From positions 1 to 21,078 of IMG/VR virus record IMGVR_UViG_3300032278_000145: 21,078 nt of DNA. One strand, given 5' to 3'. Made by a program: the position numbers and the translations under genes. Position 1 is the stretch's first letter, and every line of letters starts with the position of its first letter. Below the pieces are notes generated by a model. The model saw nothing but the letters and a program-made list of their open reading frames with translations. It made no database searches and was not told the DNA's origin. Shown here piece by piece: positions 147 to 20,046 of this stretch. This stretch comes from a virus.

Positions 147-164
147 TTGACACCGGCCTGTCAA
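147..164. promoter_or_regulatory. operator-like palindrome, site 1 (exact)
   Basis: TTGACA-CCGGCC-TGTCAA matches the consensus at all 12 defined bases. It lies in the non-coding leader about 90 bases before the endolysin ATG. No -10-like hexamer sits at the right distance on either strand, so it does not look like a plain -35 element. Confidence 0.7.
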
Positions 165-188
165 ATCCCCACGTTCCCAGCCTCAGCC

Positions 189-213
189 AAGAGTGGGGTA
201 GCCTCCCGCTCTT
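189..213 (+). other. nine-pair hairpin in the endolysin leader
   Basis: Bases 189-197 (AAGAGTGGG) pair with 205-213 (CCCGCTCTT), with one T-G wobble, around the 7-base loop GTAGCCT. The stem is followed by TGTGCG rather than a T-run, so terminator activity is doubtful. The inner stem and loop recur at 224-240, but there the outer stem is lost. Confidence 0.45.
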
Positions 214-240
214 GTGCGTGGTCTGGGGTAGCCTCCCGCT
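194..240. repeat. 17-bp direct repeat, two copies 30 bp apart
   Basis: TGGGGTAGCCTCCCGCT occurs exactly at 194-210 and 224-240, separated by 13 bases. Only the first copy is embedded in a full hairpin. Read on the minus strand each copy contains GGGAGG. The second copy ends 11 bases before the endolysin ATG, where no ordinary ribosome-binding sequence is present, so the repeats may matter for expression of that gene. The function is unknown. Confidence 0.6.
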
Positions 241-251
241 GATACGAAGCA

Positions 252-1001: not shown

Positions 1002-1025
1002 GGTCCACCACTTCCTGAAAACTGC

Positions 1026-1034
1026 TGGTATACT
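1026..1034 (+). promoter_or_regulatory. putative extended -10 promoter of the replication operon
   Basis: TGGTATACT is an extended -10 element (TGN plus TATACT, five of six to TATAAT). It lies in the only sizeable gap of the plus arm (1002-1101), between the endolysin stop and the regulator. No good -35 hexamer is placed 16-18 bases upstream, which is tolerated by extended -10 promoters. The transcript would start near 1041, just inside the back-to-back half-sites at 1039-1049. Confidence 0.55.
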
Positions 1035-1060
1035 GAACTGTCACTGACCAGCCACCAGGA

Positions 1061-1081
1061 GGGCTCGCCTAGAGCGAGCCC
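1061..1081 (+). other. perfect 8-bp hairpin in the operon 5' leader
   Basis: GGGCTCGC (1061-1068), loop CTAGA, GCGAGCCC (1074-1081). It lies between the putative promoter and the AGGAGG of the first operon gene. There is no T-run, so it is probably a transcript-stabilising or regulatory leader hairpin rather than a terminator. Confidence 0.55.
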
Positions 1082-1090
1082 GCCAGGACC

Positions 1091-1096
1091 AGGAGG
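1091..1096 (+). promoter_or_regulatory. strong ribosome-binding site that fixes a TTG start
   Basis: AGGAGG lies five bases before TTG at 1102. No in-frame ATG or GTG is as well placed, so this site decides the start of the regulator gene. Confidence 0.75.
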
Positions 1097-1101
1097 ACTC
1101 C

Positions 1102-1713
1102 TTGCAAGTACCGTCAATAGCCGAAGCCATCGACAGGCCCGACCCTGAATGGGTCGCTGTGTTGCTACGAGATTACTGCACTGACCAGGGAGAACCCTCT
1201 GCCAGTCCTGTGAGCATCCAGTTGAATCGGTTCGGACTCAACGCCCCGAAGATCCAGAAGGTCTGTGAGTACGCCCGGGTGGCCGGGTACTACGGCCAGG
1301 AAGTCTCAGACGGTGTTCGGCACCTGTGGGCCTTCGGATTGACCACGCAGGACATCGCCCGGGTCCTGTCAGTGACACCTGAAACAGTACGCCAGGTGCA
1401 TCAGGAGGCCCGCTGGAGCCAGGAGGAAGCCTGCTCCATCCTCCTCCACATCCAGGGATTCACCCCCCAAGAGATCAGCATGGCCCTGGGCAAGACCCGT
1501 GGCTGGGTCTACTACATCTTCGACATCCACGGTGTCACACCCAACCGCAAGAATAGGCGTGCAACCGACCGGGGACAGAAACGAGAGATCATCCGGCGGT
1601 ACGACATGGGCGACAACGCAAAGGACATCGCCTCCGACCTCAACCTGGAAGCACACCAGGTCTACTGGGCCGTAGCCAAGGCCCGCATGGACGGACAGAG
1701 AGTACGCACATGA
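1102..1713 (+). CDS. DNA-binding regulator with three helix-turn-helix units
   Basis: This 203-residue protein shows three consecutive HTH-like segments: about 79-100 (GLTTQDIARVLSVTPETVRQV), 119-140 (GFTPQEISMALGKTRGWVYYI) and 169-192 (GDNAKDIASDLNLEAHQVYWAV). Each has the sigma-70 region 4/LuxR-like pattern of a DI or EI turn followed by a recognition helix. The N-terminal 70 residues are not recognised. It is the first gene of the replication operon, has a TTG start with a strong AGGAGG, and ends in an ATGA overlap with the next gene, so it is probably a transcriptional regulator made early. I infer, without proof, that it may bind the dispersed TTGAC-N8-GTCAA palindromes. An anti-repressor or sigma-like role is also possible. 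I cannot name a known homologue. Confidence 0.72.
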   Translation: MQVPSIAEAIDRPDPEWVAVLLRDYCTDQGEPSASPVSIQLNRFGLNAPKIQKVCEYARVAGYYGQEVSDGVRHLWAFGLTTQDIARVLSVTPETVRQVHQEARWSQEEACSILLHIQGFTPQEISMALGKTRGWVYYIFDIHGVTPNRKNRRATDRGQKREIIRRYDMGDNAKDIASDLNLEAHQVYWAVAKARMDGQRVRT

Positions 1714-2621: not shown

Positions 2622-2634
2622 GGAGGAGAAGCAC

Positions 2635-3180
2635 ATGGCGTACAGCCCCCAAGAGAAGGCCGAAATCGTGGCCCAGGTTGCAGCGAAGGTGGCAGGTTCA
2701 ATCTGCTGCGGAAGCGGCGATCTTGACAAGTACCTGTCAACCGTGGAAACAGTCCACAACGATCTCATTGAGAGGATCGCCACGGCGGTCGCTGCGGCGG
2801 GTGCAACCGTCGTGACCCAGGTCTTCCCTGGGGCAACGACCACCGCCGCCCCTGGGCTGGTAGCACCACCGGCAGCACCAGCACCGGCACCAGTACCAGC
2901 ACCGGCACCCCAGGGCCTCGTTGGCCCCATCACCAGTACCTCCAACGAGGACGACAAGTGGCGTGACGCCCTGGTCAACAGCCCAAACAACTGGTTCAAC
3001 AACATCAACGACAAGCGGAGCCCCGACGGTCCCGACTTCCGGCACAAGACCCTCAAGGACAAGGATGGAAAATACAACCTTGGTCTCTGGATCAAGTCAG
3101 ACAAGTTCCAGACACGGGCCCCCGACTGGGTGTTTCAGCAGTTGGGCCTGGACATCCCCGCCGGTTACAACGCCTCCTAG
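2635..3180 (+). CDS. putative ssDNA-binding protein with a PDF-type C-terminal motif
   Basis: This 181-residue protein has three parts: an N-terminal helical region (1-65), a Pro/Ala-rich linker (about 72-98, PAAPAPAPVPAPAP) and a conserved C-terminal block (about 108-172). That block contains KWRDALVNSPNNW, NNINDKRSPDGPDFRHK, LGLWI and APDWV. It resembles, from memory, the PDF motif of plant organellar ssDNA-binding proteins (W...DNR..KR....PDFKHK...LWL...P.W). No OB fold is visible, which is unusual for that family. A place between a nuclease and a helicase fits an ssDNA-handling role. The ATG at 2635 has AGGAGG at 2621-2626, eight bases upstream; a longer in-frame reading from 2509 lacks this and would overlap the previous gene. 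The ssDNA-binding function is inferred from the motif and context. Confidence 0.68.
   Translation: MAYSPQEKAEIVAQVAAKVAGSICCGSGDLDKYLSTVETVHNDLIERIATAVAAAGATVVTQVFPGATTTAAPGLVAPPAAPAPAPVPAPAPQGLVGPITSTSNEDDKWRDALVNSPNNWFNNINDKRSPDGPDFRHKTLKDKDGKYNLGLWIKSDKFQTRAPDWVFQQLGLDIPAGYNAS
2723..2740. promoter_or_regulatory. operator-like palindrome, site 4 (exact)
   Basis: TTGACA-AGTACC-TGTCAA matches at all 12 defined bases. It lies about 90 bases into the PDF-motif gene and shares CTGTCAACCGTG with site 2. Confidence 0.65.
2878..2909. repeat. 14-bp tandem-like repeat encoding the Pro/Ala linker
   Basis: CCAGCACCGGCACC occurs exactly at 2878-2891 and 2896-2909 (period 18). It encodes the flexible Pro/Ala linker of the PDF-motif protein and may change length by slippage. 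Confidence 0.6.
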
Positions 3181-3185
3181 CCGCC

Positions 3186-4061
3186 ATGGTGGTACGCCGA
3201 CTAGAGGAGGTTGGCGAGGAGTTGAGTCGGTGGGCGACATCCGGGTTGACCCGGGTCCCCACCGGCTACCCCCTCTTTGACTCCCGAACGAACGGGGGCA
3301 TAGCCCCCGGAGAAGTGTTCCTGTTCCTGGCCCGCACCAGTGTCGGCAAGACCTGGTGGGCTCTCAACATGATCGCCAACCAGGACGAGACCACACCGAT
3401 GGTGTTCTTCTCCCTGGAGATGCACGCCCGGTACATACTCCAACGCCTGGCCGGGATCACCAGCAACACACCGACGATTGACATTGAACGGTCATTATCA
3501 GAGACAGGTGCAGCAGCGGGAGTCGCAATGACAGAGGAACGGTACCCACTGCTGGCCATAGAGGATGAGCCCGGCCTGTCAGTGCGCTCCATGGGTGCCG
3601 CCCTGGAGGAGTACGCCGCCACCTTCGGCCAACCAGCCAGGCTTGCTGTCGTGGACTACATGGAACTCGTCAAGTCCCCCGGCATGTCTCAGGTAGAGAA
3701 CGTGGACAAACTGGGGTGGGCTCTCAAAGACTTCGCCCGCAAGGAGGACATAGCCCTAGTGGTTCTGCACCAGGTCAAACGAGGAGACAACAACCAGGGC
3801 CACCGACCCCTGTCCATGACCGACGCCAGGTTCGGTGGGGAGATGTCCGCCGACTATGTGGCAGGGGCCTTCCGGCCCTGCCTGAACCCCAGCCTGGACC
3901 CGGGCATGAGGGAGGCCCTGGACGACGACTTCCGGCTCCAGTTCCTCAAGACCCGCTCGTCTGGTGGGATCTACCCCGACGGTGTCCGGCACCACTTCGA
4001 CACGCAGACCGGGGCAATCGTTCCGATGCCATCCGACCTACCCTCCACCCAACTGTTCTGA
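3186..4061 (+). CDS. DnaB-type replicative helicase, C-terminal RecA-like domain only
   Basis: This 291-residue protein corresponds to the ATPase domain of DnaB-family helicases. Visible motifs are Walker A ARTSVGKT (49-56; DnaB proteins commonly have ARPSMGKT), FFSLEM with catalytic E78, Walker B LAVVDYM with D157, LVVLHQVKR with H195/Q196, and FLKTRSS (253-259), which matches the region of the basic finger residues. The usual N-terminal primase-interaction domain is absent; family members are usually about 450 residues. It would unwind DNA with the primase encoded at 4465-5358. Start choice is uncertain: ATG 3186 has no good ribosome site, whereas TTG 3222 follows AGGAGG (3205-3210) and GAGGAG (3216-3221). 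I kept the ATG. The stop overlaps the next ATG (TGATG). Confidence 0.85.
   Translation: MVVRRLEEVGEELSRWATSGLTRVPTGYPLFDSRTNGGIAPGEVFLFLARTSVGKTWWALNMIANQDETTPMVFFSLEMHARYILQRLAGITSNTPTIDIERSLSETGAAAGVAMTEERYPLLAIEDEPGLSVRSMGAALEEYAATFGQPARLAVVDYMELVKSPGMSQVENVDKLGWALKDFARKEDIALVVLHQVKRGDNNQGHRPLSMTDARFGGEMSADYVAGAFRPCLNPSLDPGMREALDDDFRLQFLKTRSSGGIYPDGVRHHFDTQTGAIVPMPSDLPSTQLF
3478..3495. promoter_or_regulatory. operator-like palindrome, site 5 (one core mismatch)
   Basis: TTGACA-TTGAAC-GGTCAT: the left half is perfect and the last base of the right core differs. It lies inside the helicase gene. On its own it is weak; it is listed because it has the same geometry as the others. Confidence 0.35.
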
Positions 4062-4231
4062 TGGGTGTCAACATGGAGAAGCAGACGGTGTACCTGGGGT
4101 CGGGCCTGTTCAGTATCGCCTGGCGGATCTGCGACGACGATGTGATGGTCGACTACGCCTTCTCCAGGGAGGAAGCAGAGATCAAGGTCATGAACCTCAC
4201 GGAACAGAAGGAGCATCGGGATGGGGCGTAA
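4061..4231 (+). CDS. small hypothetical protein
   Basis: A 56-residue product, overlapping the helicase stop (TGATG at 4059-4063) and running 11 bases into the next gene. An in-frame ATG at 4073 is an alternative start. It contains YLGSGLFSIAWRICDDDVMVDYAF followed by a charged helix (SREEAEIKVMNLTEQKEHR). I do not recognise the family. Support comes from its exact fit between two coupled genes and from normal composition. Confidence 0.6.
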   Translation: MGVNMEKQTVYLGSGLFSIAWRICDDDVMVDYAFSREEAEIKVMNLTEQKEHRDGA

Positions 4232-4472
4232 TAGTAAGAGCAACGAGGACCGGTTCCTGGCCTGGCTCCAGTTGGGTATGCGTAACAACTGGATTGGTCC
4301 CCCCGTGTGCGACACCCATGACGGGACCCCAACCTCTGAGGAGGAGGACGAAAGCGACTTCGACTGCTGCATCCATGTGGTGCGCCTATACACCGACGCC
4401 GACCACAAGACAGCGGTGGAGGAGAACCACATGATGACACAGGAGAGAAAGAGGGAGTTCGGCGGTGCATGA
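4221..4472 (+). CDS. small conserved phage protein with paired CxxH motifs
   Basis: This 83-residue acidic protein contains PPVCDTHDGTPTSEEEDE followed by DCCIHVVRLY. I recall a protein of unknown function common in actinobacteriophages with the same layout (PVC.THDG...EEE...C.H..RL). The CxxH pairs at residues 30-33 and 49-52 could bind a metal. The ATG has AAGGAG seven bases upstream (4208-4213). It overlaps both neighbours, so it is part of the translationally coupled operon. The function is unknown. Confidence 0.72.
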   Translation: MGRNSKSNEDRFLAWLQLGMRNNWIGPPVCDTHDGTPTSEEEDESDFDCCIHVVRLYTDADHKTAVEENHMMTQERKREFGGA

Positions 4473-5358
4473 CACTGCGGAAGAGATGAAGGAGATCGCC
4501 AGAGAGGTCCGCATGGAGACCGTCCTGGACCTGCTGGCCCTGGACCCACCAGACAGCAGCCACAAGATCCGGTCAGTTCACAACCCCAACGAGAACGTGC
4601 CCAGCCTCCACATCTACGAGTACGACTTCTATGACTTCTCCACAGGCCAGGGCGGAGACCAGATTGAGTTCGTGAAGATGGTGTTGGAGTGCAACTTCTG
4701 GCGTGCTTTGACATTCCTCTGTCAAGCAGAGGGGATGGACGGTTCCCGTGACGAGGTAGCCCCCAAGCCTCTCCCCGACCTGACCGACAGGTTCAACAGC
4801 GAGCCAGCGGGCTCTGCCATGTCCCGGCAGAATGCCAGGGACCGGGTAGCAAAGAAGTGGCCGTACCTAACCCTGGAGGATGTTGAGTCGTTCGGTGTCA
4901 AGGTTGGTTTGCACAACCTGTGGGTACCTTTCTGGCATGAGGGCAAGGTGGTGGGGATAAAGACTAGGAGTACCATCGGTGCGGATAGCAAAATGAGCAT
5001 CAAAGGGAGCCGCTTCACCACCGCCCTATACAGCGTCGTGTACCGGCCCGCAGCCACCCATGCCTGGATCTGTGAAGGGGAATCGGACACCTGGTGCCTG
5101 ACCAAGGCCCTTAGCCACGACGAACGGCACGTTGTCTACGGTCTCCCTGCGGGGGCTGGTGCGGTCCAGGCCCGCTGGTTCAACGGGTGGCCATACGAGA
5201 CCACGTTCCTCCTGCTGGACGACGACCCGGCAGGCCGCAAGGCCGCTTCCAAGATCCGAACGGCCCTAGAAGACTTCGACGTTCAGGGTATTTTCCTGCC
5301 CGGTGGACGCCTCGCAGAGGCGTTGGCCGAAGGCTGGGTACCCCCGGCAGTAGACTGA
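4465..5358 (+). CDS. DNA primase with TOPRIM domain and degenerate zinc region
   Basis: This 297-residue protein makes RNA primers for replication. The TOPRIM catalytic signature is clear: E204 and D208 in ICEGESDTWCLTKAL, and LLLDDDPAGRKAA (249-261). The N-terminal segment 33-75 aligns by pattern with the CHC2 zinc-binding domain of DnaG (H39, VPSLHIY, DFSTGQGGDQIEFV), but the zinc cysteines are missing, so metal binding there is probably lost. No helicase domain is fused; the separate DnaB-like protein from 3186-4061 would supply it. The start is GTG 4465 with AGGGAG about seven bases upstream, overlapping the previous gene by eight bases. Site 6 of the palindrome family lies at 4708-4725. 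Confidence 0.85.
   Translation: MHDTAEEMKEIAREVRMETVLDLLALDPPDSSHKIRSVHNPNENVPSLHIYEYDFYDFSTGQGGDQIEFVKMVLECNFWRALTFLCQAEGMDGSRDEVAPKPLPDLTDRFNSEPAGSAMSRQNARDRVAKKWPYLTLEDVESFGVKVGLHNLWVPFWHEGKVVGIKTRSTIGADSKMSIKGSRFTTALYSVVYRPAATHAWICEGESDTWCLTKALSHDERHVVYGLPAGAGAVQARWFNGWPYETTFLLLDDDPAGRKAASKIRTALEDFDVQGIFLPGGRLAEALAEGWVPPAVD
4708..4725. promoter_or_regulatory. operator-like palindrome, site 6 (exact)
   Basis: TTGACA-TTCCTC-TGTCAA matches at all 12 defined bases, inside the primase gene. It is read in a different codon phase (L-T-F-L-C-Q) from sites 2, 4 and 7, so a shared protein motif cannot explain it. Confidence 0.65.
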
Positions 5359-5364: not shown

Positions 5365-5718
5365 ATGGCCAACCCTGCCAGGTCTAAAGGCACCGCCTTT
5401 GAGAATGAAGTCCTTGTTGCCCTGCAAGAGATATGGCCCGACGCCGACCGGGCCAAGGCAGGCAACAAGTCGGATGATTTCACCGGGGTACCCATCCCGG
5501 TGGAGGCCAAGCACCGGAAACAGTGGGACATACGAGAATGGGTGCGGAAGATACGGGCCGTGGCACCCGACTACCAGTGGGCCGTCGTGGTTGCGGACGG
5601 TGACAGGCGACTGTCAATGTCGCCGGGCACCATCGCCGTCGTGGACGCAGAGTTCTTATACGAACTATTGGAGGCCTGGAACTTGTTGGGGCTGCCGGAG
5701 GAACTGGCTGATGAGTGA
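5365..5718 (+). CDS. PD-(D/E)XK nuclease, Holliday-junction-resolvase-like
   Basis: This 117-residue protein shows the core of small PD-(D/E)XK nucleases: KGTAFENEVL (8-17) with E13, D38 in NKSDDFTGVP, the E47-x-K49 pair in PVEAKHRKQW, and a following helix with W55...W59. Length and layout resemble phage resolvase or VRR-NUC-like enzymes. It probably cuts branched DNA during replication or packaging. There is no clear ribosome site; ATG 5365 lies six bases after the primase stop, suggesting re-initiation. An ATG at 5360 in another frame opens a long frame whose first half is only a shadow. It overlaps the next gene by eight bases. The exact substrate cannot be read from the sequence. Confidence 0.75.
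   Translation: MANPARSKGTAFENEVLVALQEIWPDADRAKAGNKSDDFTGVPIPVEAKHRKQWDIREWVRKIRAVAPDYQWAVVVADGDRRLSMSPGTIAVVDAEFLYELLEAWNLLGLPEELADE
5600..5617. promoter_or_regulatory. operator-like palindrome, site 7 (one core mismatch)
   Basis: GTGACA-GGCGAC-TGTCAA matches 11 of 12 defined bases, inside the resolvase-like nuclease gene. Confidence 0.5.
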
Positions 5719-6250
5719 ACCGTACAAGCGCACTAGGGAACAGAAGGAACACGACTTCGCCAATGCCCGGCATTACGAGGAGTATGTAGCGACATCCATC
5801 GGGGTACCGGTTGTTACTCGTTTCGACGCCACCGATGATCTGGATATATGGGTACCGGGTTATTACGTTGAAGTCAAAGAGAAGAACCAGAACTACACCG
5901 CACGTTGGCACCTGATTGACGGGCTCCCGGAACGTAACCTGTTCGTAATAGACGAACTAACGGTAAGGCGGGCCTGTACCAAGTACCCCTATGTGTTCTT
6001 CCTGCTTAGGGACAACGTCGGTGGTGACGAACCACGGCTCTACATTGCCCCCATTTGGGAACTGATCGGGGTAGAAAGGGTCCGCAGGAACCGGAACGGT
6101 AAGGGCAAGTGGATCATCAACATCGAAAACTTCACCCGCCTGGCCGACGAGGCCGACATCCATGCCTATGCTGTCCACGCCCTCGTCAAACAACTGTGGT
6201 TGACATCCGATTGTCAAACGAGACTAGAGATACCGGAGGTATTCCAATGA
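5711..6250 (+). CDS. second PD-(D/E)XK-like nuclease
   Basis: This 179-residue protein has a likely nuclease core at residues 20-70: an ARHYEEYVA helix, D45 in TDDLDIWVPG, and the E54-x-K56 pair in YYVEVKEKNQNY. The rest has alternating strands (NLFVIDEL, YVFFLLR, LYIAPIWEL) ending in a helix. It follows another PD-(D/E)XK gene with an eight-base overlap; the two do not look like recent duplicates. ATG 5711 has GGAGGA at 5696-5701, so the longer frame from 5360 was rejected. It may be a second resolvase, a restriction-like endonuclease or a nickase. Site 8 of the palindrome family lies at its 3' end. Confidence 0.65.
   Translation: MSEPYKRTREQKEHDFANARHYEEYVATSIGVPVVTRFDATDDLDIWVPGYYVEVKEKNQNYTARWHLIDGLPERNLFVIDELTVRRACTKYPYVFFLLRDNVGGDEPRLYIAPIWELIGVERVRRNRNGKGKWIINIENFTRLADEADIHAYAVHALVKQLWLTSDCQTRLEIPEVFQ
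6200..6217. promoter_or_regulatory. operator-like palindrome, site 8 (exact)
   Basis: TTGACA-TCCGAT-TGTCAA matches at all 12 defined bases, 30 bases before the next gene's ATG. It shares the longer string ATTGTCAAACGAGAC with site 13 on the other arm. Confidence 0.65.
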
Positions 6251-6783: not shown

Positions 6784-7344
6784 GTGATTGTTGGATTCGG
6801 CCACCGGGCCCGGGTAGGCAAGGACACGGCAGGAGACTGCCTAGTAGCCCAGGGGTGGGAACGCCTGGCCTTCGCAGACCTGGTCCGGCAAGTCCTCTAC
6901 GTCCTGGACCCGGTAGTTGACCCCGTATCAACCAACTACTACTTCTGTCTCAAGAACATGGTCGACACCATGGGCTGGGAGATGACCAAGGAGAACACGG
7001 AAGTCCGGGGCCTGCTCCAGAAACTAGGCCACGGCCTACGAGAGATCCTGGACCCCGGTGTGTGGTGCCGACCAGTAGTCGACAAGGCCGAACTCCTGGA
7101 CGAGGACGGCGTCAACGTGGTCATCACCGATGTCCGGTACATAAACGAGATAGAAGCAATCTGGCAGGCCGGGGGAAGGGTCTACCGCATAGACAGGGCG
7201 GTGCCTCACCTCTCACACCCTGGCGAGGAACAGTTAGATGAGTTTCAGGGCTGGGATGGGATCATTGACAACAACGGGTCAATCGAAGACCTAGATAGTC
7301 AGGTCAGGGCTCTAGTCATGGACTACACCCTGGATGTAGATTGA
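6784..7344 (+). CDS. deoxynucleoside monophosphate kinase-like protein
   Basis: This 186-residue P-loop kinase begins MIVGFGHRARVGKDTAGD, matching the start of phage dNMP kinases (GxxxRSGKDT). Other family-like parts are FADLVRQVLY, LLQKLGHGLREILDPGVW and VVITDVRYINEIEAI (the conserved D.R..NE block). It would phosphorylate dNMPs to supply replication. The first P-loop glycine position appears to be histidine, which I recall in other phage members. The GTG at 6784 gives the typical N-terminus; GTG 6772 is an in-frame alternative. Upstream in-frame codons would overlap the previous gene deeply. An operator-like site lies near the 3' end (7265-7282). Confidence 0.82.
   Translation: MIVGFGHRARVGKDTAGDCLVAQGWERLAFADLVRQVLYVLDPVVDPVSTNYYFCLKNMVDTMGWEMTKENTEVRGLLQKLGHGLREILDPGVWCRPVVDKAELLDEDGVNVVITDVRYINEIEAIWQAGGRVYRIDRAVPHLSHPGEEQLDEFQGWDGIIDNNGSIEDLDSQVRALVMDYTLDVD
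7265..7282. promoter_or_regulatory. operator-like palindrome, site 9 (exact core)
   Basis: TTGACA-ACAACG-GGTCAA matches 11 of 12 defined bases with a perfect core, near the 3' end of the kinase gene. Confidence 0.6.
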
Positions 7345-10958: not shown

Positions 10959-11305
10959 TACGCATAACTCAGGGCCGTCGCCGGGAACACGACCTTACGG
11001 CCACTGTCCCAGGCAGCCGCAGCGCCACCGCCCAGGTTGGAACTGGTCTCTGCCTCTGTCCCGCCCCTGGCGACTGTCAAGGTGTAAGGGTTGGAAGAAC
11101 CTGAGATAGCAGTCACCTTCACCAGTTCAGGCTGATGCTCGACCGCTTCCGGGTCGATGGCCATGACCATGTAGTCGGCCCCCGCCCATGACGTATCGTC
11201 AGGGATCGCAGAGTTGGCGGCGAAGTTCACATAGACAGTAGTGGCAGCGTCGGTTATACCGGCGTTCAGTGTCCCCTCGCAGAAGTTGATGTATTTCCTA
11301 GCCAT
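10958..11305 (-). CDS. small virion protein with phage beta-barrel motif
   Basis: A 115-residue protein. The central block (DYMVMAID...ELVKVTAISG...YTLTVARGGTEAE) resembles part of the neighbouring protein encoded at 11314-12249 (IEINQEAMLVTAV...IVTVARGYAGT). Both look like a small beta-barrel found in phage virion proteins. GAGGTGA precedes the ATG at 11305. Likely a tail or connector component; the exact role is unknown. Confidence 0.6.
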   Translation of the reverse strand: MARKYINFCEGTLNAGITDAATTVYVNFAANSAIPDDTSWAGADYMVMAIDPEAVEHQPELVKVTAISGSSNPYTLTVARGGTEAETSSNLGGGAAAAWDSGRKVVFPATALSYA

Positions 11306-11313
11306 GGTTCACC

Positions 11314-12249
11314 TCAGACTATTACTTTCGGCATCTTACGGAACGTCCTGTGACGAGGCACATTCTGGACCCGTCGGGCCTCGTCAATCCGACGGTAGAA
11401 CTCCCCCCACAACTCACGCATGATCCGTATGTTGAACCCCTGCCTCACGGCAGCGTCCTGGTTCCACTCCTCAATCTGATCCAAGTCCAGGCGGGTGATC
11501 TCATGCCCAGTGATCGCATAGGCCGCAGCCCACAGCGACGGCAAGTCCTCAGAAGCCAACGGCAGACTGATAGTGGAACTCTCCACCGGGGGCACCACCG
11601 ACCAGGCATACGGTCGCACAGAAGTCACAATCAGGGCGTCATCGTTCTCCACCGTGGACGGGACACGCAGGGCCTTGCCCGAAGTAATCAGACCAGTCGG
11701 AATGTCCTCCTCAAACTGCCATCCCCCCACATCTATGATCCGCCCTGTGACACTGATGAAGTGCCGCACGCTAAGCACCCGCTGGGTGTCGGCGTGCATC
11801 TCAACGTATTGCTTGCCTGCCGTGCGGTACAGCAGATCGGTTCCGTCGGCACCGGTAATAATGTACGGCAGGTAGACGTTCATAGGGCCAGACACGCAAC
11901 GCTGTACGAAGCGGGCGATGTCGGCCCGGAGATGCCCAGGCTGCACCAGGACCGGGTGAGTGGCTAGATGGTCAGCAGAAGCGGTTGTCCCCGCATACCC
12001 CCGGGCCACGGTCACGATGTCAGTGGCGGTGTCCACCGCAGTGACCAGCATCGCCTCCTGGTTGATTTCGATAACGTCCGTTATCGCCAACTTGGAAGCA
12101 TCACCAGTCGCCAAGTTCAGCGTCGTATCGGCAGCGTCGCTGGGCCCACCAGACATGGTGACCTGCAACGGCCGCTCAGAATGCCGGTACAGCCTTGACA
12201 GAGCCTCGTCAATCAGCGTGCCCAGGGACACGGAAACGGTGGTAGCCAC
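11314..12249 (-). CDS. virion protein, possible head-tail adaptor or tail-tube component
   Basis: This 311-residue protein starts with a helix (LGTLIDEALSRLYRHSE), then a beta-barrel-like block (about 45-100, IEINQEAMLVTAVD...TVARGYAGTTAS), and ends with a helical region (LWAAAYAITGHEITRLDLDQIEEW, IMRELWGEFYRRIDEARR). The layout of a helical gateway around a beta region would suit an adaptor or tubular tail protein of a short-tailed phage, but I cannot prove it. The start is GTG 12249, overlapping the upstream stop (TAGTG). An operator-like site lies near its 5' end (12195-12212). Confidence 0.55.
   Translation of the reverse strand: MATTVSVSLGTLIDEALSRLYRHSERPLQVTMSGGPSDAADTTLNLATGDASKLAITDVIEINQEAMLVTAVDTATDIVTVARGYAGTTASADHLATHPVLVQPGHLRADIARFVQRCVSGPMNVYLPYIITGADGTDLLYRTAGKQYVEMHADTQRVLSVRHFISVTGRIIDVGGWQFEEDIPTGLITSGKALRVPSTVENDDALIVTSVRPYAWSVVPPVESSTISLPLASEDLPSLWAAAYAITGHEITRLDLDQIEEWNQDAAVRQGFNIRIMRELWGEFYRRIDEARRVQNVPRHRTFRKMPKVIV
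12195..12212. promoter_or_regulatory. operator-like palindrome, site 12 (exact core)
   Basis: TTGACA-GAGCCT-CGTCAA matches 11 of 12 defined bases with a perfect core, about 40 bases inside the 5' end of the 311-residue virion gene. Confidence 0.6.
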
Positions 12250-13073
12250 TACCTTCTAGACCTCATTCTTCCCGGGAATCTTCCCGCCCTATTCGTCCTG
12301 TAACGCAAATCTACTCGCAAACTCAAGGGCCCGGCAACGGTACCAATCGCCCCACCCGTGTCTTCTGCCAGGTCCATCAGTTCCTCTACGCTGAGAGCCC
12401 TGTCTCCCAGCGCCTCCAGGAACGCAGAGGCCTCCTCTACCGTAATACCGATAGCGGCCAGGGCTTCGGCCCCGGCCCCGGTATCGGCCTGGGAAAGATA
12501 AATCCCTGCGGCCTCCAAGAATAGGGACGTTTCAGCGATTGACATTGCATTGTCAAACGAGACAGTGAGGTCTGTGCCAGAACCGGTATCAGCCTGGGTT
12601 TGGCTGATGCTAAGCCAGGACCCGACCCCCCGGTACTGCTTCGCTGACTGGTAGGCAACATCGGTTCGGTACCCCTGCTGGGTCCCGTACCAATAGTTGA
12701 TGCTGTCCGAACTCGTAGCGGAGATGCCGCTGATCTCAGTTTCAGACCCGGACCCGGTATCGGTACTCGCAACACCCATACTCTGGGAATCTGTGATCCC
12801 TGTAACCCACTCCAGGACCGGTCCACCGCCCTCCAAAGTTACAGAGATGGAGGGATATGTTCCCTCCGCCCCGGAGCCCGTGTCGGCCGGTGTAAGGACG
12901 GCTGAGAGCGTCTGAGAGTCAACGCCCGAACCGACATCCCCGATTGGGTCGTCTATGCCCGTTCGATACTGGGCCTTGACCTGGTACGGGTTACTATTCC
13001 GGTATGTGAGATCGAATATGCCAGGCCTGTAATGGCCTGGATTCCGGTAGAGGAGCGATGAACGGTAGGCCAC
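12249..13073 (-). CDS. repeat-containing virion protein (DTGSG repeats)
   Basis: This 274-residue protein contains about five diverged repeats that start with a DTGSG-like motif (residues 64, 105, 162, 198 and about 238), each followed by a short hydrophobic strand or helix. Basic Tyr-Arg motifs lie at both ends and in the middle (YRSSLLYRNPGHYR, GYRTDVAY, LRYRTNRAG). DTGSG-type repeats occur in other phage tail proteins. The start is GTG 13073 with AGGAG nine bases upstream. It probably forms an extended tail part. The repeats are too diverged to show as DNA repeats. Site 13 of the palindrome family lies inside. Confidence 0.6.
   Translation of the reverse strand: MAYRSSLLYRNPGHYRPGIFDLTYRNSNPYQVKAQYRTGIDDPIGDVGSGVDSQTLSAVLTPADTGSGAEGTYPSISVTLEGGGPVLEWVTGITDSQSMGVASTDTGSGSETEISGISATSSDSINYWYGTQQGYRTDVAYQSAKQYRGVGSWLSISQTQADTGSGTDLTVSFDNAMSIAETSLFLEAAGIYLSQADTGAGAEALAAIGITVEEASAFLEALGDRALSVEELMDLAEDTGGAIGTVAGPLSLRVDLRYRTNRAGRFPGRMRSRR
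12539..12556. promoter_or_regulatory. operator-like palindrome, site 13 (exact)
   Basis: TTGACA-TTGCAT-TGTCAA matches at all 12 defined bases and is also nearly symmetrical in the spacer. It shares ATTGTCAAACGAGAC with site 8. It lies inside the DTGSG-repeat gene. Confidence 0.65.
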
Positions 13074-13079
13074 CGGGTA

Positions 13080-13448
13080 CTACTCCTGGGAGTATTCAAC
13101 CCAAGAGGTTGTGTCTTCGTCCCAGTAGTAATCCTTGCCGTCGTCGGGGTACGGCGTCGGTGCCTCCCAGTCAACCGTGTCCTCGTTGATTACCCACGAT
13201 GGGAATGGAGAGGGCCTGATGAAGGCGTCCCGGCCAGCGTCGTAGATGGTGCCCTCCGTGGCGGCGTACCGAACCCGGTAGTTGTTGTTGTACGAGGTGC
13301 GTTTCCATGTCCCGCCAAGTAGGTCGTTGCAGAACGCCTCCCCGATGGAATCCACCTCGTTGCCATCGCCGTCGGCGGTGTCCTCGTCAGCAACAACGAT
13401 GACCCGCAAGACCATGTTATTGGAGTCAATCTCTACAAAGTGAGCCAT
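13080..13448 (-). CDS. conserved marine-phage virion-associated protein
   Basis: A 122-residue protein beginning MAHFVEIDSNNMVLRVIVVAD, with GEAFCNDLLGGTWKRTSYN, GRDAFIRPSPFPSW, and TPYPDDGKDYYWDEDTTSW near the end. This block order is one I recognise from small proteins of unknown function in marine cyanophages and pelagiphages, usually near tail-fibre genes. The start ATG 13448 follows a G-rich stretch. The position between the Gly-rich adhesin and the repeat protein supports a tail-fibre-associated role. Confidence 0.72.
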   Translation of the reverse strand: MAHFVEIDSNNMVLRVIVVADEDTADGDGNEVDSIGEAFCNDLLGGTWKRTSYNNNYRVRYAATEGTIYDAGRDAFIRPSPFPSWVINEDTVDWEAPTPYPDDGKDYYWDEDTTSWVEYSQE

Positions 13449-13456
13449 CAGCCCCC

Positions 13457-14653
13457 CTAGACCGCATACCGGATGACGACGATCCCGCTGCCACCGTTGC
13501 CCTTGGCGGCGATGTAGGCAGCGCCAACAGCGGTGCCCCCGCCACCCCCGCCACCGCCCGTGTTGGCGGTGGCGTTACTGGCGTCGCCGCTGGTACCGCC
13601 GTTCCATGCCGCACCGCCGCCGGTGCCACCGCCAGAGCCACCGGACCCTGCTGCGGGCTGCGGGGATGTGCCGTTACCACACCCGCCGCCGCCACCGCCA
13701 CCGCCGTAATACACCGTGCTTCCAGTTCGGTAGACGTTCCCTTCACCGGCACCGCCATTACCGCCGACACCGCTGGTGTTGCCCGCTCCACCGGCTGCAC
13801 CAGAGCCGCCGCCACCGCCAGCACCGCCCCACATGTTGCTGGTCTGTCCTACCGCCGAAGCGGCACCGTCGTTGCCGTAGGTACTGCCAGAGCCACCGGC
13901 TGCGGCCCAACCGTTTATCGCTGCGTAGTTGTACGTGCCCCCGCCACCGCCAGAGCCGCCGCCCGATGCCGCACCGCTACCAGCGCCCATGTTGCCGCCA
14001 CCGGACGCAGCGACCGTGTAATCGCCCATCACTGAGGACGCACCGCCGTACCCGCCACCACCAACGGTCACGGTATATTCCTGTACGACACCGGTCGCAG
14101 TTTCGGTGCGAACACCGCCACCGCCACCGCCACCGCCGGTGGATGTGTAGTAGCCGCTCAGGCCCCCGTGGCCGTGGTTACCACCAGCGACGATCAGAAC
14201 GTCAATGTTGTCGCTGCCGCCGTTCGCCGTGATCTCGAAGGTTCCAGAACTCGTGAATGTGTGGACCTTGTACCCACCGTAAGTGGTGATCGTGCCGCCC
14301 GTAGCGACGATGACATCCTGAGCGGTAGTCAGGGACGGTGTGTTGCCGTCAGCACCGGTACCCGCCTCGTTGATGGCAGCCACATTGAAGTTGTACGAAG
14401 TGTTGGATGTCAACCCTGTGGCCGTGTACGTCGTCCCCGTCGAACTGGTGTCGGCCACAAGAACCGACCCGTCCTTCTTGATCCGATACCCAGAGATTGT
14501 TCCGCCACCCGTATCGGATGGTGCTGACCACGACAGGTTGATCTCAGTCTGAGCGGTAGAACCTTCTGCAAGGCTGAGAGTCCCCGGCGCACCGGGAACG
14601 ACAACGCCGCCCTGACCGCCGATTGCCGCTAGGAGGAACGGGCCGATAGCCAT
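13457..14653 (-). CDS. tail adhesin: fibronectin III domain plus glycine-rich domain
   Basis: This 398-residue protein has a fibronectin III domain at about 20-112 (INLSWSAPSDTGG, GYRIKKDGS, TTYTATGLTSNTSYNFNVAAIN). A short strand region follows (YKVHTFTSSGTFEI...DVLIVAGG), then a glycine-rich domain to about residue 390 with long Gly runs, ending GNGGSGIVVIRYAV. That arrangement matches glycine-rich phage receptor-binding domains, in which polyglycine helices pack in a sandwich. It is a good candidate for host recognition. The Gly-rich part gives an Arg/His-rich false frame on the plus strand. It lies between a tail-fibre gene and the marine-phage-type protein. Confidence 0.78.
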   Translation of the reverse strand: MAIGPFLLAAIGGQGGVVVPGAPGTLSLAEGSTAQTEINLSWSAPSDTGGGTISGYRIKKDGSVLVADTSSTGTTYTATGLTSNTSYNFNVAAINEAGTGADGNTPSLTTAQDVIVATGGTITTYGGYKVHTFTSSGTFEITANGGSDNIDVLIVAGGNHGHGGLSGYYTSTGGGGGGGGVRTETATGVVQEYTVTVGGGGYGGASSVMGDYTVAASGGGNMGAGSGAASGGGSGGGGGTYNYAAINGWAAAGGSGSTYGNDGAASAVGQTSNMWGGAGGGGGSGAAGGAGNTSGVGGNGGAGEGNVYRTGSTVYYGGGGGGGGCGNGTSPQPAAGSGGSGGGTGGGAAWNGGTSGDASNATANTGGGGGGGGTAVGAAYIAAKGNGGSGIVVIRYAV

Positions 14654-14656
14654 GGC

Positions 14657-15769
14657 TTACGCCAATGCGCCGATTAGGAACCAGGTGTTAGAGCCATAGT
14701 TGATGAGAGCAGCCGAAGCGTACCTACCGTCAATGGACTTATTGTCGTCCTTGGAGTCAAGGCTGGTGGAGTTGCTCTCAGCGAACGTGACCGTGGAAGT
14801 GTTTGATGCGACGAACACCATCTGTGTGCCCACCGGCCAAGAGATACTCCCGTCGATGGTGATGGTCTGCGTGCCACCAGACTGAGAGCAGTAGAACACC
14901 TTGCCAGCGTCCCCCAAGGCCGGGGTCTTGTTACCGGAGATGTCCTCTGTCAAGCACTCGTACAACTGGGAGGTCCCATCGACGGCCAGACCAGTCATGG
15001 TCCCCACCGAAGTAATGGCCGACTGAGCAGCCCCGGTGACAGTGGCCGCAGTCCCGGAAGCGTTACCAGTGACATTCCCTGTCAAAGGCCCAGCGAAAGC
15101 GGTCGCCGTCAACGTCCCAGTACCAGCGTTGTAGGTGGCCCCGCCGTCGGTCTTCGGGGCGAGGTCCCCCGTGGCGCTCTCAAAGAGAGCCACTGAGCAA
15201 GTGGTATCCGTAGTGTCAGCAACAGTGATAGTGCCTGGGACAATGGCTGCTGTCCCATCAAATGAAACACCGCCGATATTCCGGCCTGTCGCCAGGGCAG
15301 TTGCCGTAGCGGCATTGCCCGTGGTGCTACCCGATGTCCCCGAAGTATTGCCGGTCACATTCCCGGTCAGAGGACCAGCGAACCCAGTCGCCGTCAACAC
15401 CCCAGTGGCAGCGTTATAAGTAGCCCCGGCATCCGACTTCGGAGCCAGGTCACCAGTCGCTGACTCAAACAGGGCCACCGAACAGGTCGTATCAGTCGTA
15501 TCAGCGACCGTGATCGTGGTAGGTACAGCCGTCGGGACGGCAGCCCACTCAGTGTCGCCGTCGCCCTGCTTTACAAGAACGTGATTAGTTGAAGCCCCAG
15601 CAGCCGTCGTAGATCCAATACCAAGTTTCGTTTCCAGCGCAATAAGCGCCCCCGAATGATTGGTGTGAACAACATCATGCTCATAACCAGAATCGTCCAT
15701 CTCCGTGGACGCACTGGGAGAAGGCTGTTGGGTGCTATTGTCCAGCGCCGTCGGGTAAGCGGTCGCCAT
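14657..15769 (-). CDS. tail fibre protein with internal duplication
   Basis: This 370-residue protein begins with MATAYPTALDN and an HTNHSGALIALETKLG segment common at fibre N-termini. Residues 86-145 and 181-240 are near copies (54 of 60 identical), each with TTCSVALFESATGDLAPK and GFAGPLTGNVTGN-like parts; these repeats are typical of marine phage fibres. The C-terminus (YECLTEDISGNKTPAL...ALINYGSNTWFLIGALA) is a beta-rich knob-like end. It probably binds the host surface or supports the neighbouring adhesin. Confidence 0.75.
   Translation of the reverse strand: MATAYPTALDNSTQQPSPSASTEMDDSGYEHDVVHTNHSGALIALETKLGIGSTTAAGASTNHVLVKQGDGDTEWAAVPTAVPTTITVADTTDTTCSVALFESATGDLAPKSDAGATYNAATGVLTATGFAGPLTGNVTGNTSGTSGSTTGNAATATALATGRNIGGVSFDGTAAIVPGTITVADTTDTTCSVALFESATGDLAPKTDGGATYNAGTGTLTATAFAGPLTGNVTGNASGTAATVTGAAQSAITSVGTMTGLAVDGTSQLYECLTEDISGNKTPALGDAGKVFYCSQSGGTQTITIDGSISWPVGTQMVFVASNTSTVTFAESNSTSLDSKDDNKSIDGRYASAALINYGSNTWFLIGALA
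15050..15229 (-). repeat. second copy of the fibre-gene internal repeat
   Basis: It encodes residues 181-240 of the fibre. It is paired with 15335-15514. The proteins are 90% identical, but the DNA carries many synonymous changes (roughly a quarter of bases in the stretch I compared). Confidence 0.7.
15335..15514 (-). repeat. first copy of the fibre-gene internal repeat
   Basis: It encodes residues 86-145 of the fibre. It is separated from the second copy by 35 codons, with a period of 95 residues. Confidence 0.7.
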
Positions 15770-15770
15770 G

Positions 15771-16289
15771 CTACGAAACCGTGATCGTTACCGTCAGGGT
15801 CCACTCTGAGCCCGAAGCCTTCGTACCCAGGGAGGCCACCTTACGATTCAAGGCTGTGCCAGTGTCCTCGCCGCCGACACCACTGGTGGCGCTGCGGATA
15901 CTCCATTCCTCCCAGGCGAAGTTGCCCTCAGCGGAACCCCACACCGACTTCCAAGTCATCGTCTGACCTGACCGGCTTGGGAACGTGGACTCCATCGCCT
16001 GGTAATCCCTGGCGGAAGTACCCGCCTGGAGGCCCGTCTGCCCCGCAGCAGCCGCCGTGGTGCTGGTACCCACCCCGATGTAACTACCCGTGCCATAAGC
16101 GGTAACAGAACCGATAGCACAGAGAAGATCCAACAGATTCTGGATCCCCCCGTTCAGGAGAAGATTGTCCTCAGCAGAAATCGTGTCGTCCGGGGGGAGC
16201 CCTTTGGCCCGGTCAGAAGCAACATTCCACTTCTCAACGGTGGCTACCACGCCCCATTCTTTGGAGTCGATGACATCAGGTGCGCTCAT
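15771..16289 (-). CDS. conserved phage tail protein
   Basis: A 172-residue protein with DNLLLNGGIQNLLDLLC, YIGVGTSTTAAAAGQTGLQA, TMTWKSVWGSAEGNFAWEEWSI and ALNRKVASLGTK. I recognise this block order from a small protein that sits beside tail-fibre genes in many marine and environmental phages; its exact role is unknown. GAGGA precedes ATG 16289 by four bases. It is the first gene after a 79-base gap, so it may begin a transcription unit. Confidence 0.7.
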   Translation of the reverse strand: MSAPDVIDSKEWGVVATVEKWNVASDRAKGLPPDDTISAEDNLLLNGGIQNLLDLLCAIGSVTAYGTGSYIGVGTSTTAAAAGQTGLQAGTSARDYQAMESTFPSRSGQTMTWKSVWGSAEGNFAWEEWSIRSATSGVGGEDTGTALNRKVASLGTKASGSEWTLTVTITVS

Positions 16290-17747: not shown

Positions 17748-17790
17748 ATTGCTGGCCTTCCTGTGGTTAGTGGGTGATTATCGGGACCCT

Positions 17791-18279
17791 CTAACGACGG
17801 CGCTTGCCGGGCTTATTCTCCAACGCCCACTCAATGGCCTGTAGGCCGGTCAGTTTCTCCGGGTTGATTACCGGAGTCGGCTGGCCGGACATTACGCCCA
17901 CCTTATGAGCCCTATCGAACGCCTCAGCGTCAGCATGAGAACCAGAATCAGGTGCCGGGCCAAGAAAATCCTCAACCTGGCGGTCCAACTCGTCGCCCTC
18001 AAAGCCACGCTTTGCTAGTAGGTCCCTGGCCAACTTCTCTTGCATGCCACGACGATCCTCATGGATCTCCCTGGCCCGCTCCTCAAGTTGACCTATGTCG
18101 ACGCCGACCAGATCCGTGGGCTCCACAAGCGACAAGCCGTGCTGCTGAATAACCTCTAAGGCTCTCAGGCCGGAAAGTTCGCTGGTAAGCGATCTGTTCT
18201 GTTCTAGCGTTTCCTCCAACTTGTGTCGGAGGGTGCCTCCCGACATCGTAGAAATATCTTCTTCGTCATCGAATGGCAT
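17791..18279 (-). CDS. capsid scaffolding protein
   Basis: A 162-residue, highly charged and helical protein directly upstream of the major capsid gene, the usual place for a scaffold. It has a coiled-coil-like start (LRHKLEETLEQNRSLTSELSGLRALEVIQ), an acidic and basic middle, a Pro-rich hinge (FLGPAPDSGS) and a basic C-terminus (NKPGKRRR) that could bind the capsid inner face. AGGAGA precedes ATG 18279. Confidence 0.75.
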   Translation of the reverse strand: MPFDDEEDISTMSGGTLRHKLEETLEQNRSLTSELSGLRALEVIQQHGLSLVEPTDLVGVDIGQLEERAREIHEDRRGMQEKLARDLLAKRGFEGDELDRQVEDFLGPAPDSGSHADAEAFDRAHKVGVMSGQPTPVINPEKLTGLQAIEWALENKPGKRRR

Positions 18280-18363
18280 ATGTGTCTCCTGGTCTCTTAC
18301 GCTCCCGAACCCCAGGGGTATCCAGGAGGATGTGTGTATCTAAGTATAACTGACACTGCGCTG
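18280..18363 (-). promoter_or_regulatory. probable promoter region of the scaffold-capsid genes
   Basis: This is an 84-base gap in the otherwise packed late arm. On the minus strand it holds TATACT (18348-18343; the same hexamer as the plus-arm promoter), with palindrome site 14 directly upstream. No -35 is placed 16-18 bases before TATACT; the TTGACA of site 14 is only 13 bases away. Extra transcription here would boost scaffold and capsid protein, which are needed in large amounts. Confidence 0.45.
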
Positions 18364-18367
18364 TCAA
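18350..18367. promoter_or_regulatory. operator-like palindrome, site 14 (one core mismatch)
   Basis: CTGACA-CTGCGC-TGTCAA matches 11 of 12 defined bases. It spans the stop codon of the 560-residue virion gene and abuts TATACT on the minus strand, so a bound protein would block that promoter. It is the most promoter-like placement among the sites. Confidence 0.55.
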
Positions 18368-20046
18368 TAGCGCACGCCGCCACCTGTTCGTCCAGGCTGC
18401 GCCAGACGGGCCCCACGGGAGGTAGTAGCAAACCCCCCAGGGGCACGGCCCCTCGCCATCTCGTCCTGACGGGCCCGTGTTATGAGATCAACCTCAGGGG
18501 CCTGGCTCAAGAACACTGCGTTCTCAAAGTCCTCCTGGCCGAACCTGGCTGCGCCCTCCCCCTGGATGTTCGTTCTACTAAGCATGGATTCGATCATTGA
18601 ACCCTGGTTCACATAAGCCCCGTAACCCTTCAACGCTGTGGCCCGGGTGATACCGGCCTGCCTGAACGCCCCCACACGGGCCATAGACGGGGCCACCAGC
18701 CCCTGCTCCGCTGCTGCACCGCCGATAAGAGCAAACTGGAACGCCTCTATCAGTTCGTCCAAGTCCAACAGCGGATCCTCGTTGTCCGGGTCCCCCAAAT
18801 ACAGGGCCTCCACCAACCCCTGAGCCTGCTGATCGGTAAGAGCGTTGATCCTCGCTACCGCCCCCTCCGGCAAAGCCCCCTGCGCTTCCAGAATGCTGAG
18901 AGTTTCAGCGGTCGCCTCCAGGGCAGCCGACGTGGCGTTCGCCACCCAGTTGGAATAGTCGAAGTTCGCATTCAGCAGGTTCTCGTTGTACCGGCCAATC
19001 AAGGTTCTTGACGCTTCCGGGTCAACTACGGCCTGGTACAGGTCGTCTACAGAGACATCCATGTTGGCGTAAATCTTGAACGTCGCCCTCACATGGGCAG
19101 AGTTGTTCGTCAAGTCCCTGTAAGTGTCCAGCCTGTTCTGGAGTTCATCCGTTGAGATGCCCCGCTCCATGAGCGTCGCATAGTCCACCGGGTTCTCTGT
19201 GCGAGGGTTGAAGATCTCCCTACTACCGATGCTGCCAGCGTCAATCAGCACGTTCCGGTATTCCCTGACCTGGTCGACATACGCCTGTTCGTTCACGAAC
19301 CTCATACGCCCGTCCTCATCGGTGATGCCGGGGAACGTGGCCAGGTACTGCGGGGTGTCACGAACCTGTGCGATCAGGACATCGTCGTCTATGCCCTCCG
19401 TTACAGCCGCCTCAATCATCCGGCCCAGGTTCAAGTCCTTCGCCCAAGGGAAGTGCTGTAGCGCCCACTGCTGGGCGAGACCAGGCTGGTCGAAGAAGTC
19501 GATTGCTGCCGTGTCTGGCTGCGTTACGACGGCTGGGTCCCGGCCAAAAAGCGGCCCGGTAGGCCCGGCAGGCGTGGCGACAGTCTTCCGGGTTCCATCC
19601 ATGTTCCAATCGGGATGACCGTCTTCCACACTCCGGGCATCAGAGTTGGTGGCCAGGCGGGTTTCTTCCGTACCGTCATCGAAAGAGGTAGTTGTATGCC
19701 AGACCCCCTGGTCGTCCTGCCAGGTACGCATACCGATTGGTTCCCTGGGGGCCCGAACCCCCTGCGTCGCATACCAGGCATCCAACTCGCCCATGGGAAT
19801 AACTTCCGCATTTGCCATTGCCATGTCGAAGGCCTCGTTCTCCTCCACCCCTTCGGCAATGCGGGCATTAGTGAAGGCGGTAACAAACCTCCGGTAGGCG
19901 TCGACATCCGAAGTGGTCAGATGCGACCTGGCCCCAGGTCCACGGTCCCCGTGAATCTCAGTAGCCAGGGCGTCCAGATCGCCGCTCAGGACGTTCTCCC
20001 TAAAGCCCGTCCCGAAGCGGTCGGGATCCGGCGTTAGACGGGCCAT
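18364..20046 (-). CDS. large virion protein, possible internal or ejection protein
   Basis: A 560-residue protein, mainly helical and polar. A block around residues 205-270 (DDVLIAQVRDTPQYLATFPGI, VNEQAYVDQVREYRNVLIDAG) resembles a motif I know from phage internal virion or tail-associated proteins (T..Y...FPG...E..Y...YR). Further on are long helices and an Ala-rich region (AALEATAETLSILEAQ). It ends in a Gly/Arg-rich tail. The position upstream of the scaffold fits a head-internal or ejection protein of a short-tailed phage. ATG 20046 overlaps the previous stop (TAATG). The function is inferred. Confidence 0.5.
   Translation of the reverse strand: MARLTPDPDRFGTGFRENVLSGDLDALATEIHGDRGPGARSHLTTSDVDAYRRFVTAFTNARIAEGVEENEAFDMAMANAEVIPMGELDAWYATQGVRAPREPIGMRTWQDDQGVWHTTTSFDDGTEETRLATNSDARSVEDGHPDWNMDGTRKTVATPAGPTGPLFGRDPAVVTQPDTAAIDFFDQPGLAQQWALQHFPWAKDLNLGRMIEAAVTEGIDDDVLIAQVRDTPQYLATFPGITDEDGRMRFVNEQAYVDQVREYRNVLIDAGSIGSREIFNPRTENPVDYATLMERGISTDELQNRLDTYRDLTNNSAHVRATFKIYANMDVSVDDLYQAVVDPEASRTLIGRYNENLLNANFDYSNWVANATSAALEATAETLSILEAQGALPEGAVARINALTDQQAQGLVEALYLGDPDNEDPLLDLDELIEAFQFALIGGAAAEQGLVAPSMARVGAFRQAGITRATALKGYGAYVNQGSMIESMLSRTNIQGEGAARFGQEDFENAVFLSQAPEVDLITRARQDEMARGRAPGGFATTSRGARLAQPGRTGGGVRY
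19008..19025. promoter_or_regulatory. operator-like palindrome, site 15 (exact core)
   Basis: TTGACG-CTTCCG-GGTCAA has a perfect TTGAC-N8-GTCAA core and the same inner variant bases as site 3. It lies inside the 560-residue virion gene. Confidence 0.55.

Follow-up and report, generated by a model that had tools for sequence, protein, structure and literature searches.

A symmetric spaced palindrome selected as DNA within phage genes, a possible operator network

Results

A dispersed palindrome in a virus genome and its relatives

The window analysed here is a whole stretch of viral DNA of 21,078 nt (positions 1 to 21,078 of the IMG/VR record IMGVR_UViG_3300032278_000145), and its subject is a spaced palindrome, TTGAC-N8-GTCAA, or TTGACA-N6-TGTCAA in the full 18-bp form. 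We find that this palindrome is selected as DNA, mostly within genes, and that it is shared by two clades of related phages with ~60% and ~43% GC. The explanation that we favor, and to which we give about an even chance, is that the ~30 sites per genome are an operator network through which a non-integrating phage controls its transcription globally. The sites would very probably be bound by one DNA-binding protein, which we infer to be encoded by the phage itself.

The window contains 10 exact copies and 5 copies with one mismatch, at the coordinates and in the classes given by the original prediction, all of which are correct. Dinucleotide shuffles of the window gave a mean of 0.02 exact copies (maximum 1) and 0.51 copies with at most one mismatch (maximum 3), which is near the chance expectation of 0.02 and ~0.6 one-mismatch copies calculated beforehand. 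The full 18-mer had been announced at 15 places; the core is found at all 15, but TTGACA-N6-TGTCAA is exact only at 147, 553, 2723, 4708, 6200, and 12539, and the genic sites are degenerate at position 6 of both arms.

The spacing is locked. All 10 exact copies in the window have N8, and every other spacing from 0 to 30 gives none. Three relatives that look near complete, G001 (47,330 bp), G002 (47,344 bp, with a 99-bp terminal repeat), and G003 (46,955 bp), have 20, 19, and 15 exact copies with N8, respectively, and at most one at any other spacing. With one mismatch, there are a further 18, 11, and 14 copies in these ~47-kb genomes. Furthermore, when all spaced 5-base palindromes are counted without bias, TTGAC-N8-GTCAA/TGACA-N6-TGTCA ranks first in every genome that bears it.

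Thirteen of the window sites are genic; their codon phases differ, and genes transcribed from either strand carry them. The other two, at 147 (probably in non-coding DNA) and at 18350 (mostly intergenic, in a promoter-like region), are the only ones that touch non-coding DNA, as had been predicted. The site at 18350 shares 4 bases with gene 18364-20046 at its stop codon. The palindromes, to which no strand is assigned, are as follows.

147-164: exact 18-mer, probably intergenic, upstream of the endolysin gene; kept in L006-L012 and L053 with drifting N6
553-570: exact 18-mer in the endolysin gene 252-1001; partly retained in relatives
2467-2484: exact TTGAC/GTCAA core in the PD-(D/E)XK exonuclease gene; present in 11 loci of the 60% GC clade (GC-60), lost in G002
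2723-2740: exact 18-mer in gene 2632-3180; common to L006 and G002, a phage of the 43% GC clade (GC-43), and absent from other GC-60 relatives
3478-3495: one mismatch, in the DnaB-like helicase gene; identical imperfect form in relatives
4708-4725: exact 18-mer in the primase gene, in frame as LTFLCQ; also in G002
5600-5617: one mismatch, in the RusA-like resolvase gene
6200-6217: exact 18-mer in gene 5711-6250; no relative, G002 included, differs in the arms
7265-7282: exact core in the dNMP kinase gene
8562-8579: one mismatch, in late-arm gene 8290-10227 (minus strand); same mismatch in the GC-60 and GC-43 clades
9685-9702: one mismatch, in late-arm gene 8290-10227
12195-12212: exact core in late-arm gene 11314-12249; also in the GC-43 clade
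12539-12556: exact 18-mer in late-arm gene 12249-13073
18350-18367: one mismatch, between gene 18364-20046 (stop overlapped) and the scaffold and capsid genes; found at ~30 loci, of which some have N5 rather than N6
19008-19025: exact core in late-arm gene 18364-20046

Selection on the DNA within genes

Synonymous codons were shuffled 2000 times within the window genes. The shuffled genes contained a mean of 0.135 exact copies, with a maximum of 2, while 9 are observed; for copies with at most one mismatch, the mean was 1.57 and the maximum 6, vs 13 observed. Codon-preserving shuffles of the relatives gave the same picture, with 16 copies observed against a maximum of 4 in G001, 9 against 3 in G002, and 10 against 3 in G003.

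Codons were then compared at residues conserved between the window and a relative, with arm codons defined as those whose third base lies within a palindrome arm. Between the window and G002, of 43% GC, 29 of 37 arm codons (78%) are identical, compared with 1104 of 3232 (34%) elsewhere (p = 6e-8). The corresponding values are 42 of 44 vs 2419 of 3800 for G001 (p = 1.5e-6) and 36 of 38 vs 2694 of 3699 for G003 (p = 0.001). At orthologous sites the arms are kept and the central six bases drift, as seen at site 6200 (TTGACATCCGATTGTCAA, TTGACATCAGAGTGTCAA, TTGACATCAAACTGTCAA, TTGACATCTGAATGTCAA).

Thus, the palindromes are not a by-product of the protein sequences, because synonymous shuffles fail to produce them and the arm codons keep their synonyms. 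The proposal that the DNA itself is selected is borne out both by the shuffles and by the relatives, which keep the palindromes beyond the needs of the proteins. Many sites are inherited among related phages, as would be expected of functionless shared ancestry, but this, chance, and codon bias are contradicted as explanations by the shuffles and the synonymous conservation, and the same motif is present in clades of 60% and 43% GC. The two diverged clades, which differ in base composition, are natural evidence that the network is selected at the DNA level inside genes.

Nature, orientation, and density of the sites

A set of 197 distinct sites with at most two arm mismatches was collected, of which 157 lie outside the RNA leaders described below. 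Among these 157, positions 2-5 (TGAC) are near-invariant on both sides. Changes at positions 1 and 6 mostly affect one side and are not compensated on the other, and position 7 is paired in 25%, as often as expected by chance. Such a pattern is that of a DNA dyad which a symmetric protein reads, and not that of an RNA stem. The imperfect sites are not oriented to transcription, since the better half is upstream in 34 and downstream in 30 (p = 0.71). TTGACA was also considered as a -35 box in general and was rejected: the leader copies directly precede a ribosome-binding site, leaving no room for a -10 box.

About one site occurs every 500-760 bp of the early block, every 1000-1200 bp of the replication block, and every 1900-2200 bp of the late arm. 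The main rival to an operator network is a genome-organizing one, in which a phage protein would bridge or coat the dyads to condense, protect, or segregate DNA in replication or packaging, in the manner of MatP/matS, with no main role in transcription. Sites that occur genome-wide on both arms, within genes and unoriented, and that are conserved even in late genes, are what such a network would need. However, the density is uneven, peaking at the early-gene leaders, and one site fits a promoter. Furthermore, no ParA-type ATPase or ParB_N domain was matched in five records, in which the controls were positive. We therefore regard genome organization as rather unlikely, and the partition system suggested in the original prediction finds no counterpart in these records. 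A packaging or modification signal, also suggested there, is without support.

Site 18350 and a putative capsid-operon promoter

The site at 18350 abuts a conserved -10-like box, which precedes the scaffold and capsid genes on the minus strand.

18343-18348, minus strand: -10-like TATACT, adjoining the palindrome and preceding gene 17791-18279 and the capsid gene; from the alignment, putative promoter

In the alignment, the arrangement CTATTGACA-N6-TGTCAG-N-TAYACTTAGAT is common to the window, G001, and G003, and the equivalent in G002 is TTGACA-N5-TGTCAA-GATATACTTAGAT. The presence of the -10-like box and its conservation point to a promoter in this region. Since some relatives have N5, this site tolerates a change of one base in the spacing.

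A candidate binding protein

What protein could bind these sites? The window encodes one plausible candidate, for which the case is circumstantial.

1102-1713, plus strand: tandem helix-turn-helix (HTH) protein of 203 aa, candidate binder of the palindromes; Pfam HTH_23, weak PHROG HTH/D5-like matches, model pLDDT 78

Pfam finds several HTH units in this protein, and the model is all-helical. It is encoded in motif-bearing contigs of both clades, with 77-89% and 44-46% identity. The stretches of HTH2 and HTH3 are 51-58% identical between clades, and the N-terminus 25%. No relative was found among the INPHARED phages, and the HTH profile has no sequence relation to a solved phage repressor. A fold search of the model gave no confident match (best E value 0.12 in PDB and 1.2e-3 in BFVD). 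Fold and sequence searches together reach only HTH modules, those of Tc3 transposase, KorB, and the CRISPR-repeat binder 2lvs, and no whole protein is matched with confidence.

A leader RNA element in the relatives

In the relatives, to the left of the region corresponding to the window, a leader unit precedes most of the small early genes. It consists, in order, of a CCCTG/CAGGG stem, a T-arm-like hairpin, GACGA, and a second hairpin, followed by AACGAGGAGGAA and the start codon; the first stem resembles a tRNA acceptor, and with the T-arm-like hairpin it makes up a tRNA-like element. In 43 leader units, double changes are seen in 12 of 18 pairs, and the covariation score is above those of all 500 shuffles and all slid versions. 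The second hairpin is the palindrome in most units, and there a seventh pair and a 4-nt loop, making a perfect 7-bp hairpin, are present in 40 of 40. Unrelated hairpins, for example TCCCAGGACCTTCCTGGGG, replace the palindrome in some units, and in two GC-43 units it is located just before the tRNA-like element instead. The leader unit occurs in both motif-bearing clades, and a search of the window, G004, and G005 found none. Its loci, from covariance model R1, are as follows.

L047, 3161-6721: leader RNA units
L053, 13674-17880, minus strand: leader RNA units
L006, L008, L011, L050, L075, and L100: leader RNA units

The closest Rfam family is DUF2693-FD (RF02926), with 23.3 bits against a gathering score of 44.5, and an Rfam scan of the window found no family. 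The leader is thus probably an RNA family that has not been described. Because the seventh pair is always present and unrelated hairpins sometimes substitute, the hairpin seems to be wanted as RNA at the leaders, where the palindrome may double as a DNA site. Plausibly, the unit would be processed like a tRNA, so that every early mRNA would retain a protective hairpin at its 5' end.

These leaders raise the question of whether the palindrome acts everywhere as a hairpin in the transcript, in processing, decay, or translation, with the conservation of the DNA being secondary. The constant seventh pair and 4-nt loop, and the foreign hairpins found in the same slot, would agree with this. However, the chance-level pairing of position 7 at genic sites, the uncompensated changes at positions 1 and 6, and the invariance of TGAC do not, so that this is a good reading for the leaders and not for the window sites. 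For the network as a whole, we consider it very unlikely.

In the GC-60 phages, Rfam tmRNA (transfer-messenger RNA) matches of only ~77-91 nt, above the gathering score (54-58 bits), were observed immediately to the left of the part that the window covers.

L047, 7372-7448: tmRNA-like match
L008, 8609-8689: tmRNA-like match
L053, 12883-12963, minus strand: tmRNA-like match
L006, 5630-5720: tmRNA-like match
L011, 5304-5384: tmRNA-like match
L087, 12636-12716: tmRNA-like match

This element has a tRNA-like domain and a short hairpin, without a reading frame or pseudoknots. The acceptor, GGGGUAG/CUACUCC, contains the G3-U70 pair, which is an alanine identity element. From these features, it would be a miniature tmRNA lacking an open reading frame and conserved in GC-60 phages, possibly a decoy of trans-translation.

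The phage group and its host

The plus strand of the window encodes the endolysin, the HTH protein, the PD-(D/E)XK exonuclease, the DnaB-like helicase, the primase, the RusA-like resolvase, and the dNMP kinase, and the minus strand encodes structural genes, including the capsid protein. The motif is absent from the more distant relatives G004, G005, L067, and L078, and no equivalent dispersed palindrome of other sequence stands above background in G004 and G005.

No tyrosine integrase or serine recombinase was found in the motif-bearing records, whereas the motif-free G004 has a tyrosine integrase (9453-10013, minus strand). Since this integrase-bearing phage is without both palindromes and leader, the loss of integration and the gain of the network may be linked. 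These results bear on the possibility of an immunity repressor with operators and stoperators, which would keep lysogeny or an episomal prophage as in the cluster A mycobacteriophages. The half-site TGTCAA is present in cluster A stoperators, and the many dispersed sites and a multi-unit DNA-binding protein encoded alongside them are further points of agreement. However, the sites here are symmetric, unoriented, and mostly genic, no ParA/ParB and no integrase were found in the motif-bearing records, though an episomal state may still occur, and the HTH profile matches no solved phage repressor. An immunity repressor is thus improbable; of the repressor/stoperator network first proposed, the resemblance to a dispersed network of repressor sites stands, and the literal stoperator reading is weakened.

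The sole hint of the host, a weak one, is a terminase relative (70%) on one contig of an Acidimicrobiaceae metagenome-assembled genome. Neither that genome nor any of 50 others in the family contains the 18-mer, so that, with none in 51 genomes, it looks phage-specific. A bipartite palindrome is in general compatible with host regulators or with type I-like enzymes, so the sites could belong to a host regulator or a modification or restriction enzyme and be tolerated or exploited by the phage. The absence from the hinted host family, as far as the single contig is a guide, speaks against this, and a restriction target would be depleted rather than enriched. Such a host factor is hardly to be expected.

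Several other features of the group were observed. A small ferredoxin-like protein (MAKVWIDQDLCTGDGLCVEICPSLFDMHDD...), possibly from an auxiliary metabolic gene, is encoded at 39112-39387 of G002 (L051) and 15494-15763 of G001 (L047). In the late arm of G002, 10191-15992 and 16197-22106 (L050, L051) encode adjacent proteins of ~1900-2000 residues that are almost domain-free (one DUF7178 match), and both have counterparts in G001, G003, and G008. A SprT-like zinc metalloprotease, just under the Pfam cut-off, is located at 3642-4538 of L047 and 3299-4303 (minus strand) of L050, and it is the only early-block gene there with a recognizable function. The motif-free G004 (L056-L058) has a repeated word, ACCCACAAGGAGGA, which holds a ribosome-binding site (10 copies of CCACAAGGAG), unlike AACGAGGAGGAA of the motif-bearing phages.

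Discussion

Proposed function of the network

We propose that one phage-encoded, sequence-specific protein, possibly the tandem-HTH protein at 1102-1713, would bind two symmetric half-sites with the invariant TGAC core. The half-sites are ~12 bp apart from center to center, so the simplest binder would be a dimer that contacts the helix from one face. Of the ~30 operators, one would adjoin the capsid operon at its -10-like box, many would lie directly before early genes in the relatives, and others within genes. The bound protein would occlude initiation at true and cryptic promoters and impede elongation, most densely over the early genes. Initiation control is suggested because sites precede early genes and sit at the late promoter, and an elongation block or silencing of cryptic promoters because sites lie within genes.

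Some observations weigh against an operator network. The site at 18350 is the only one in the window beside a recognizable promoter element, its spacing varies (N5 in several relatives), and the promoter assignment there is itself a consensus match. The late operon holds conserved sites yet needs strong expression, so that a simple roadblock would have to be either weak or relieved. A diverged homologue of the HTH protein (33%, and 29-41% in the HTH2 and HTH3 stretches) is present in the motif-free G004, and the binder could be another protein.

In these phages, the 18-bp sequence might even have two jobs, a more tentative idea that we hold to be possible but on balance doubtful. It would be both a DNA operator network written into early and late codons and the 5' hairpin of a modular RNA leader, made up of a tRNA-like acceptor plus T-arm, the hairpin, and a ribosome-binding site. 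Enzymes of tRNA processing would cut the polycistronic transcript, each early mRNA keeping a protective hairpin. If this is true, the phage genome would be under a coupled DNA/RNA control of a new kind.

Comparison with known systems

Among the papers searched, none combines both half-site words with palindrome, phage, and repressor. The DUF2693-FD RNA resembles the leader of the relatives in having an outer stem that encloses a T-loop-like hairpin, but the leader, far under the gathering score, is probably a separate family. It adds an apparently undescribed structured RNA to the network. The start-associated sequences (SAS/ESAS) of cluster K mycobacteriophages are repeated elements with inverted repeats beside start codons (PMC3203893). 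The leader copies likewise sit next to start codons; unlike SAS/ESAS, they join the palindrome to a covarying tRNA-like RNA and a ribosome-binding site, and copies of the palindrome occur scattered within genes as well.

Cbp1 is a CRISPR-repeat binder of the Sulfolobales (PMC10883916). It offers a parallel for a protein that shapes transcription from many repeated sites, and PDB 2lvs, a solved CRISPR repeat binding protein, weakly matches the HTH candidate. However, Cbp1 is archaeal and binds CRISPR repeats, and the match covers HTH modules only, so that it is a lead and not a sign of membership.

The present sites share with the stoperators of cluster A mycobacteriophages their number, their dispersal, and the TGTCAA half-site. 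They differ in being symmetric 18-bp dyads with locked N6/N8 spacing, unoriented and genic, in phages in which no integrase was found. Cluster A stoperators (L5, TipsytheTRex) are asymmetric 13-mers oriented to transcription; more than 20 are dispersed in temperate phages, within promoters and short intergenic gaps, and the protein that binds them is a monomer carrying two DNA-binding domains (PMC9283540). The window has no copy of GGTGG-N-TGTCAAG, the cluster A type, within one mismatch; at two mismatches there is a slight excess, which is partly the palindromes themselves.

The closest known kind is the palindrome of cluster O mycobacteriophages (Corndog), TGTTCGG-N3-CCGAACA, a 17-bp sequence in 34 copies with no known function (PMC4351075). 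These phages are without integrase or parAB, and their palindromes are unoriented, denser at one end, and part intergenic, part genic (PMC4351075). G001, G002, and G003 likewise carry ~30 or more copies of one symmetric spaced palindrome per genome, both genic and intergenic and without orientation. The sequence and spacing of TTGACA-N6-TGTCAA are different, the outer positions are degenerate, and most window sites are genic. Here, the sites are seen to be conserved at the codon level across two GC clades, and relatives join the palindrome to a tRNA-like leader. The network can thus be placed with the cluster O kind as a variant for which the evidence of selection is stronger and to which relatives add the leader module. 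The cluster O palindromes were described in 2015 and left unexplained; here, a precise definition of the site, the absence of stoperator features, and a named candidate make the question testable with one purified protein.

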